Source: Rhizobium sp. Q54
Lineage (GTDB): Bacteria; Pseudomonadota; Alphaproteobacteria; Micropepsales; Micropepsaceae
Direction of reading: 5' to 3'
Assembly: GCA_945882615.1 (NCBI GenBank)
Contig: CAMCWK010000003.1
Coordinates: 94,208-158,207, forward strand
DNA: 64,000 nt
Made by a program: the position numbers and the translations under genes. Each line of letters opens with the position of its first letter. The stretch's first letter is position 1. This document shows, piece after piece, positions 56,891 through 60,252 of this stretch. The notes beneath the pieces are model-generated. The model saw only the letters and a list, made by a program, of their open reading frames with translations. It made no database searches and was not told the DNA's origin.

Positions 56891-56967
56891 GCCCGCCCCG
56901 TGGAATGCCGGAAGTCTATTGTAAAACCGGGAGGCCGTACTACATTTGCACTGCAACAATTTATCAG

Positions 56968-56982
56968 AAGGAGGTGATCCAG
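56968..56982 (+). promoter_or_regulatory. extended Shine-Dalgarno sequence
   Basis: AAGGAGGTGATCCAG is complementary over 15 contiguous nt to the universal 3' end of 16S rRNA (CTGGATCACCTCCTT). Its last G is the first base of the GTG start at 56982. A normal site pairs over 4-8 nt. A possible sigma-70 promoter lies upstream: TTGTAA at 56919-56924, 16 nt, then TACATT at 56941-56946. Confidence 0.85.
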
Positions 56983-57056
56983 TGTCTCATTGTCACTATC
57001 TGCGGACGTCGAAACCCGCGAACTGGATTCTTCTTGCGAAGAACAGCGCCGCGTAA
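56982..57056 (+). CDS. 24-residue peptide gene with extended ribosome binding site (rreB/rreR-like)
   Basis: A GTG-initiated frame of 24 codons ends in TAA. The peptide begins MSHCHYLRTSK and contains two His and one Cys near its N-terminus, then NWILLAKNSAA. The ribosome binding site is an unusually long perfect complement of the 16S rRNA 3' end. A strong terminator follows at 57081, which would give an mRNA of about 165 nt if the candidate promoter is used. From memory, rreB (Bradyrhizobiaceae) and rreR (Rhodobacter group) share extended SD sequence, GTG start and tiny peptide, and are poorly translated, ribosome-regulated mRNAs. Sequence homology to them was not tested. Confidence 0.6.
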   Translation: MSHCHYLRTSKPANWILLAKNSAA

Positions 57057-57080
57057 GCGACGGTCACAGTAAGGCAATGC

Positions 57081-57119
57081 GAGGCCGTCTCCCGCCCGGG
57101 AGGCGGCCTCTCTTGTTTT
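57081..57119 (+). terminator. intrinsic terminator of the small gene
   Basis: A 13-bp GC-rich stem (57081-57093 with 57098-57110; one G-U wobble) with a GCCC loop is followed by TCTTGTTTT. It ends the short transcript before the ThDP enzyme gene. Confidence 0.85.
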
Positions 57120-59474: not shown

Positions 59475-59604
59475 TAATCTGACGAACGTCAGGGTAGTAA
59501 CGCTCGACCACGGCACGGACCTTTTCATCAGGTACCGGAAGTAGCCCCTCAGTCGCCAGTATCTGCTGGCAGCGTCTAACCAAGCCCACAACGTGGCGTG
59601 GCTG
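59443..59604 (-). pseudogene. clamp-loader/AAA-like C-terminal remnant
   Basis: Reading the minus strand gives about 50 residues ending in TAA: LVRRCQQILATEGLLPVPDE, then KVRAVVERYYPDVRQIISQL. This resembles the lid helices of phage clamp-loader (RFC-small/gp44-like) AAA proteins, with the characteristic YYPDVRxxxxxLQ. The upstream part is missing. The match is by eye only. Confidence 0.4.
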
Positions 59605-59959: not shown

Positions 59960-60252
59960 CCCCTCTTGGCGGAATTGGTAGACGCACCAGACTTAAGAAA
60001 TTGAGTGCTAGGCGGGAAACCGCTTATGTAGAACTGCTCAAAGTCGGGGAAACCTTAGCTGGCAATCCCGAGCCAAGCCCCTAGCCGGGGAAGGTGTAGA
60101 GACTAGACGGGCAGCACCTAAAAGCAGCGATGCTTATGGTGAAGGGATAGTCCAGACCACGAACGCCTATTGGCGGCGGTGAAAACCGAAGTGGTATGAA
60201 AATCTGTTGTTCCGAAAGGGACGTCCCAGTTCAAGTCTGGGAGAGGGGACCA
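59960..60252 (+). tRNA. tRNA-Leu(UAA) interrupted by a group I intron
   Basis: Exons 59960-59994 and 60199-60252 give an 89-nt tRNA with encoded CCA. The acceptor stem is CCCCTCT/AGAGGGG (7 perfect pairs). The D arm is GCGGAATTGGTAGACGC, the T arm is CCCAG-TTCAAGT-CTGGG, and the long variable arm is GTTCC/GGGAC. The anticodon loop after splicing is CTTAAAA, anticodon UAA. The intron sits between U34 and A35, the standard site in tRNA-Leu(UAA). Pair 27-43 is C-U, a mismatch. Confidence 0.9.
59995..60198 (+). ncRNA. group I intron (subgroup IC3-like) in tRNA-Leu
   Basis: The 204-nt intron ends in G and has P1 formed by exon ACUU pairing with intron GAGU, giving the U-G splice-site pair. Core elements resemble the cyanobacterial tRNA-Leu intron: GGCAATCCCGAGCCAAGCC (P/Q), GGTGTAGAGACTAGACGGG (R) and GGATAGTCCAGAC (S). 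P7 pairs GACTA (60101-60105) with TAGTC (60148-60152) and P8 is CACC/GGTG. No homing endonuclease is encoded. Self-splicing is expected but not shown. Confidence 0.9.

Follow-up and report, generated by a model that had tools for sequence, protein, structure and literature searches.

What is the purpose of a gene of 24 codons that is preceded by a Shine-Dalgarno sequence (SD) of 15 nt, and does the answer lie in its peptide or in its RNA? Such a gene is present in the 64,000-nt stretch of DNA analyzed here (the window). A sequence-only reading of this DNA had described an SD of about 15 nt pairing with the 3′ tail of 16S rRNA, a GTG start, 24 codons and a strong terminator, and all of these were located (Table 1).

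Extended SD, start codon and terminator

All 15 nt of the SD, AAGGAGGTGATCCAG, are complementary to the 16S 3′ tail of the genus, and the last G of the SD doubles as the first base of the GTG start codon (56982-56984). The reference for this pairing was the 16S 3′ end of a same-genus genome (CCTGCGGCTGGATCACCTCCTTTCT; G016, the genome of locus L206), with which the window SD forms 15 Watson-Crick pairs and one G.U pair; a search of the assembly that holds the window gave no match to this G016 end. The SD of most relatives listed is GAAAGGAGGTGATCCAG, with 17 pairs to the 16S tail. The exact 15-mer occurs once in the 2.85 Mb genome, where about 0.005 occurrences are expected by arithmetic, and AGGAGGTGATC has two exact occurrences there. 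The terminator comprises a 13-bp stem with a 4-nt loop, followed by TCTTGTTTT.

The duplex of the window SD with the 16S tail is predicted at -29.2 kcal/mol, compared with about -10 for a 7-nt SD. Freeing the SD in the nested fold of the RNA costs 4.5 kcal/mol, a value that leaves a pseudoknot out of account; in the other elements tried the cost was 3.8-13.7. A 175-nt RNA including the terminator folded better than its shuffles (z -2.86; 2 of 200 were as stable).

Table 1. Features of the element in the window
Feature	Coordinates	Strand	Basis or remark
Promoter, predicted	56919..56946	+	-35-like TTGTAA 56919-56924, -10-like TACATT 56941-56946
Transcript, predicted, ~166 nt	56954..57119	+	inferred from -10 position and terminator
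Rfam RF01867 CC2171 match, model positions 1-159	56958..57109	+	69.9 bits, E 1e-14
Extended Shine-Dalgarno, 15 nt	56968..56982	+	complement of 16S 3′ tail
ORF, GTG start, 24 aa, TAA stop 57054-57056	56982..57056	+	frame kept in relatives
P2a 5′ strand CAUUGUC, codons 3-5	56988..56994	+	covariation, Rfam consensus, MFE fold
16S-tail mimic CUGGAUU, complementary to SD GAUCCAG (P1, predicted)	57023..57029	+	family-level tests
P2a 3′ strand GGCAAUG	57073..57079	+	covariation, Rfam consensus, MFE fold
Intrinsic terminator, stem 57081-57110 and T-rich tail	57081..57119	+	

A separate feature lies further along the window. At 59960-60252 we read a tRNA-Leu(UAA)-like gene whose anticodon loop is split (exons ...CAGACTT / AAAATCTG...) by a group I intron (RF00028 match at 59984-60175, 54.5 bits); ARAGORN called no tRNA at 59960-60252. 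The ORFs at 59593 and 61225, near the split tRNA, are integrase-like by eye.

Relatives and the CC2171 family

The closest named family is CC2171 (RF01867), a relation that goes beyond the sequence-only reading. The window match extends over the full model but lies 5 bits under the gathering score of 75, so the curated threshold is missed. Common descent of the window element and RF01867 is nevertheless well supported, because genome G028 is over the cut-off and also has a blastn match to the window (82% over 110 nt, E 4.7e-23). Other elements scored 88.7 (L008) and 81.7 bits (L053) in the same genus, 88.5 in Bosea (L066) and 82.5 in Microvirga (L111).

Blastn with a 206-bp stretch gave matches in 25 of 61 genomes, the window's own counted. 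Within the genus, a block spanning SD and start codon was found with at most 3 mismatches in 41 of 69 genomes, and RF01867 matched 42 of the 69 at E<=0.001 (G025 weakly, at 28 bits), 14 of them over the gathering cut-off with scores of 76-89. The remaining 27 genomes gave no RF01867 match, several of them nearly complete (e.g. G419, G420, G031 and G007), which points to loss or strong divergence of the element. In the class, RF01867 matched 85 of 385 genomes (E<=0.001), 13 of them over the cut-off; among 14 control genomes only Caulobacter vibrioides matched. The Rfam model was built independently of the SD pattern by which our sets were gathered; in these sets SD conservation is by construction.

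Exact GGAGGTGATCCANTG is present in 47 of 385 class genomes, in some cases upstream of ordinary genes. When up to one mismatch was allowed, AAAGGAGGTGATCCARTG was found in 77 of 398 phylum genomes; a family spread over the whole phylum was rejected, as only one of the 77 (G668) lies outside the class, and it carries GATGCAATG before a 69-aa ORF.

Among at least 119 stretches several types could be told apart by their peptides. The SHCH type (MSHCH...), to which the window element belongs, occurs in Rhizobiales, Acetobacteraceae, Caulobacterales and others; the 14-aa MSxxKRCHLAGIAR (rreB) type in Bradyrhizobium; the 18-aa MSRVILERGVGT... (rreR) type in Rhodobacteraceae; and the MSS type (MSSE/MSSD...) in Hyphomonadaceae, Rhizobiaceae and Phyllobacteriaceae. 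The architecture of the rreB/rreR class, which had been proposed for the window, was thus borne out, the same long SD and GTG standing before the 14-aa Bradyrhizobium and the 18-aa Rhodobacteraceae ORFs. Ten out of 12 rreB-, rreR-, MSS- and MSHGS-type elements aligned to RF01867 over its full length at E 1e-7 to 7e-4, below the cut-off (L186 1e-7, L181 9e-7, L278 6e-6, L183 2e-5); L287 (0.0065) and L185 (0.011) were weak. Homology of these outer types to CC2171 is likely but not proved, because the shared SD supplies part of the Rfam scores.

The analyses below used 179 elements, collapsed from 182 after leaving out the extra window copies (L001, L002), L024 (the same place as L050) and ORFs of at least 70 aa.

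Some further copies deserve mention. Among the matches listed, a tiny ORF behind the exact extended SD was seen in MAGs labelled Phycisphaerales (two), Nitrosomonadales, Burkholderiales and Deltaproteobacteria (L065, L123, L110, L175 and L134), where binning errors are possible. In Azospirillum, a Geminicoccaceae MAG and two other genomes the extended SD precedes ORFs of 56-59 aa with a signal-peptide-like start by eye (L028, L102, L130, L141, L044, L079). Genome G047 has two elements of different types (L026, MSHCHALN...; L292, MSHGSAKG...) and two RF01867 matches. In genome G390 the element (L037, L250) is located about 1.2 kb from a tmRNA match.

Reading frame and peptide

The sequence-only reading had made its case depend on conservation of the SD extension and of the frame in close relatives, and such conservation was found, though 27 of 69 genus genomes gave no match. 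The window peptide is MSHCHYLRTSKPANWILLAKNSAA (24 aa). In the 55 SHCH elements compared the ORFs are 20-26 aa long, and the frame is retained while the length shifts by whole codons. A 16S-tail mimic like that of the window copy (Table 1) lies in these elements, and its TGG is in frame in 52 of the 55, at positions varying from 18 to 42. In L021, L116 and L169 the mimic is out of frame; the frame change in L021 may be an assembly error. Synonymous substitution, which had been named as a check, pointed the same way: in 69 pairs of close genus-mates, 146 of 473 changed codons were synonymous in frame (31%), compared with 77 of 439 (18%) and 71 of 439 (16%) in the other frames. The constraint is modest, but it supports translation of the ORF. 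Met-Ser stands at the start in 162 of the 179 elements, and beyond it the peptides of other lineages have little in common by eye. According to a table in PMC7217052, a 14-aa Bradyrhizobium peptide and an 18-aa Dinoroseobacter peptide are unstructured; because length and organism fit, we take these to be the rreB and rreR products.

P2a and P2b helices

Pairing of start-proximal codons with a strand before the terminator is a further feature that the sequence-only reading did not contain. In this helix, P2a, codons 3-5 pair with the strand just 5′ of the terminator. Both P2a and the terminator are present in the cmscan alignment of the window and in its MFE fold, and P2a is already in the Rfam consensus. 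RNAalifold found it in a 23-row alignment; in a 63-row alignment it gave neither P2a nor the SD-mimic pairing (P1, below), only a 3-bp SD hairpin.

The helix was analyzed by swapping 3′ strands between the 140 of 179 elements with a terminator score of at least 28. For 98 distinct 5′ segments the mean with the own 3′ strand was -8.38, compared with -6.30 (sd 0.23) for swapped strands, and none of 5000 swaps did as well (none of 2000 within SHCH). Swaps within other single types were not clearly significant (MSS 102/2000, rreR 301/2000, rreB 145/2000, rest 403/2000). In the 63-row alignment 93.4% of P2a was paired and slid controls gave 21-44%; the 93.4% is inflated, since the rows were picked from 99 SHCH elements for a recognizable 3′ strand. 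All five whole-structure measures on these rows were reached by none of 500 shuffles. Among the unselected SHCH elements CAATG was found downstream in 70 of 99, and control words in 1-9 of 99. Helices of at least 5 bp in the P2a zone were counted in 149 of 179 elements (mean 121, at most 137, over 100 swaps); with one sequence type dominating, this test is weak.

Compensatory changes support the P2a helix. Besides CAUUGUC/GACAAUG we found CAAUGUC/GACAUUG (L112, L171), CAUGGU/ACCAUG (L278-L283, L285, L286), CAUAGU/ACUAUG (L253), CACCAAA/UUUGGUG (L252), CAUGAAU/AUUCAUG (L189) and AUGAGAUU/AAUCUCAU (L048). A second helix, P2b, joins CUGCGG to CCGCAG or one CCGCGG to another. A count over 4 of its pairs showed 74.8% of the cells paired and 20 double changes at one pair. 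The window copy keeps 3 of the 4 pairs.

Predicted pairing of the SD with an internal copy of the 16S tail

The window RNA also holds a partial copy of the 16S tail that is complementary to its own SD, likewise absent from the sequence-only reading. For the window copy alone this pairing (P1, predicted) was not significant (z -0.80, p 0.20; L003 and L004 were alike), and P1 was analyzed at the level of the family. Among 113 thinned elements, pairing of the SD with the downstream, pre-terminator sequence had a mean z of -1.70, compared with -0.30 for the reversed SD (difference p 5e-16). In a comparison of 110 of 139 thinned elements with 61 ordinary control genes, the latter had a mean z of -0.02. 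Enrichment over controls was seen in three of the four main types: SHCH (-1.78, reversed SD -0.43), rreR (-1.50, 0.18) and MSS (-1.55, 0.41); the other elements gave -1.37 and -0.51. The exception was rreB, where P1 did not differ from its reversed-SD control (-2.20 and -2.05). Taken one by one, 62 of the 177 elements scored reached p<=0.05.

The position of the mimic differs between types. SHCH elements have it within the ORF (CTGG in 91 of 99, CTGGRTY in 54 of 99), and in rreR elements CACCTCC, CGCCTCC or CATCTCC follows the stop codon in 35 of 37; those elements among L278-L292 that are of the MSHGS type showed no convincing mimic. In full matches the base opposite the start codon varies with it: a start G is opposite C in 54 of 56, a start A is opposite U in 6 of 8, and a start T is opposite C, without pairing, in 2 of 2. 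In L223, from a genome of the same genus, the SD has G in place of A before the start and the mimic has C in place of U, which turns Trp into Arg. Nine closely related MSS loci (L267-L275) also combine this G with C, and there a start A faces G. P1 mismatches were noted in L005, L006, L058 and L266. Because the Trp-Ile codons overlap P1, selection on the peptide could explain part of it.

The case for P1 is thus one of the family as a whole, and P1 is predicted to form in the cell. The linear order of SD, P2a 5′ strand, mimic and P2a 3′ strand is that of a pseudoknot, and P1 and P2a may form simultaneously.

Promoter zone and genomic neighbourhood

The RNA of near 165 nt that had been proposed stood as regards its length, the -10 position and the terminator predicting nearly the same size; its promoter was not called by an E. 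coli-type scan of the window as a single sequence. Counted from the start codon, the best -10-like hexamer has a position between -43 and -40 in 99 of the 178 elements surveyed, and that of the window sits at -41. T is found at -23 and -22 from this hexamer in 67% and 82% of 84 SHCH elements, and a CTT-type -35 is present in many elements. Several Rhodobacteraceae-type copies (L057, L061, L064, L081) have an inverted repeat, ACACAAAATCTGTG, in the promoter zone, possibly an operator of these rreR-type elements.

Flanking ORFs lie on either strand (upstream 83+/82-; downstream 74+/83- in the 157 elements with a downstream ORF). Clustering of 322 flanking ORFs, which were chosen by length so that some are wrong frames, revealed no generally conserved neighbour; the largest cluster held 17 of the 322, every one beside rreR-type elements. 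Because strands are random and there is no large neighbour cluster, the window gene looks free-standing, and the same analysis suggests that it is monocistronic.

A predicted switch operated by free 30S subunits

On balance we lean towards a self-closing small mRNA of the CC2171/rreB/rreR kind that is opened competitively by free 30S subunits. In the closed RNA the SD would be paired with the RNA's own mimic of the 16S tail. The tail of a free 30S subunit would displace the mimic from the SD by strand exchange and so capture the RNA; free tails should beat the fold, because -29.2 kcal/mol in trans stands against 4.5 in cis. A duplex of 15-17 nt would be slow to release, and together with the GTG start the over-long pairing would hold initiation back. 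Translation would be rare, weak and 30S-dependent, with decay to follow, so that RNA lifetime and peptide supply would be tied to the availability of 30S subunits. If the cis mimic does compete with the 16S tail, bacteria possess an RNA that gauges the supply of free small subunits without an intermediary; we know of no sensor for that quantity.

An alternative reading takes the RNA as the effector: a stable, poorly translated decoy parked on 30S subunits, shrinking the free pool, with an ORF that serves only for release. The strength of the SD:16S duplex would suit it, as would a single genomic copy with predicted promoter and terminator, the co-sedimentation with 30S that is reported for rreB, and an SD kept while the peptides of the lineages differ strongly (the SD partly by construction of the search). 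But the frame and stop are kept, which is superfluous for a pure decoy, and the abundance of the RNA would have to near that of free 30S. We regard the decoy as unlikely.

It is rather improbable, too, that the peptide is the point, a small protein (M-S-H-C-H ... W-I) made from a strong start signal, with the helices secondary to it. Codon-wise length changes, the synonymous excess in frame and the prevalence of Met-Ser are what such a protein would lead one to expect; beyond Met-Ser, however, other lineages share little by eye, L223 drops the Trp yet keeps the pairing, and L021 loses the frame around it. The two peptides of PMC7217052 are moreover unstructured.

An ordinary base-pairing sRNA with mRNA targets, its SD-like stretch a seed or an accident, would agree with the Rfam type of RF01867 ('Gene; sRNA'). 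We consider it very unlikely, as a complement of the 16S tail that ends on a start codon and is followed by a conserved frame is unexpected for a seed. A TPP-enzyme gene (ATG 57166) lies on the same strand 3′ of the terminator, as it does at 4 loci of the genus (a single cluster of 5), which would suit a leader or attenuator of that gene; with random downstream strands and no neighbour common to the elements, this reading is disfavoured and most improbable. A chance match, or a piece of an antisense 16S gene, has nothing in its favour beyond the complementarity itself and was rejected as scarcely credible, since the 15-mer is unique, the complementarity ends at the start codon and the conserved element recurs class-wide at unlinked loci.

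The switch opened by free 30S is thus the reading we retain, and the reported behaviour of rreB fits it. We would extend it only tentatively to CC2171, rreB, rreR and the Hyphomonas/Rhizobium- and sphingomonad-type elements as one alphaproteobacterial family of pseudoknotted switches (SD-P2-mimic-P2′) that hold a complement of the 16S 3′ tail together with a mimic of it, with free 30S as the ligand and the peptide or the RNA's own decay as the output.

Comparison with known systems

Longer-than-usual SD pairing at initiation is described for extended SD motifs of Staphylococcus aureus (PMC13009471). That is a genome-wide mode of initiation in another phylum, whereas the window has one dedicated tiny gene. 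Two ncRNAs that had been predicted earlier are reported in PMC4117421 to be translated.

The family nearest to the window element is CC2171. The consensus of the model, which the window matches over its full length, holds GAAAGGAGGUGAUCCAGUGUCUCAUuGuCaU, P2a and a terminator-like stem. It differs in its Rfam label, which is caulobacter sRNA, and in its structure line, which is without the SD-mimic pairing. We take the source of RF01867 to be Landt et al. 2008.

The extended-SD mRNAs rreB and rreR share the plan of the window gene, a tiny ORF directly after the SD and a terminator. Hahn et al. 2017 (RNA Biol 14:1353) reportedly describe rreB in Bradyrhizobiaceae with a 14-aa ORF and rreR in the Rhodobacter/Roseobacter lineage with an 18-aa ORF. 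The rreB RNA, of about 165 nt, reportedly co-sediments with 30S; its translation is said to be weak, impeded by the long SD and the GTG start, and a start-to-stop mutation reportedly stabilizes the transcript. Members of the class are said to have an SD whose complementarity to the 16S 3′ end spans 16 nt or more, beside which the window SD has its 15 Watson-Crick pairs and one G.U.

Similarity to rreB thus covers the SD complementary to the 16S tail, the GTG start, the tiny ORF, the terminator and the reported RNA length. The peptides differ, MSxxKRCHLAGIAR of 14 aa as against the 24-aa MSHCH...NWI of the window, and the sequence relation of rreB to CC2171 is limited to E 9e-7 for one copy (L181). 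The likeness of rreR lies in its 17-nt SD, mostly GTG start and 18-aa ORF, and in an anti-SD-like stretch, found 3′ of the stop in 35 of 37 rreR copies; this rreR mimic corresponds to the remaining half of the 16S tail and is located in the 3′ UTR, and the peptide is unrelated by eye. The window peptide is of neither the 14-aa rreB nor the 18-aa rreR type, so the window gene may work like rreB and rreR but is itself neither.

The architecture of rreB and rreR and the CC2171 family with its P2a helix were already known. Within the literature searched, four points may be new: the joining of CC2171 to the extended-SD mRNAs; a 16S-tail mimic that recurs in cis from type to type; the way this mimic covaries with the SD and the start codon; and the reading of the element as a free-30S switch. 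Because CC2171 matches share their architecture with the rreB 14-aa and rreR 18-aa genes, what Rfam lists as an 'sRNA' appears to form a single family of the Alphaproteobacteria with the extended-SD mRNAs already in print. An orphan 'non-coding' RNA of Rfam would in this way be linked to published extended-SD mRNAs, and the group would gain a testable structure.
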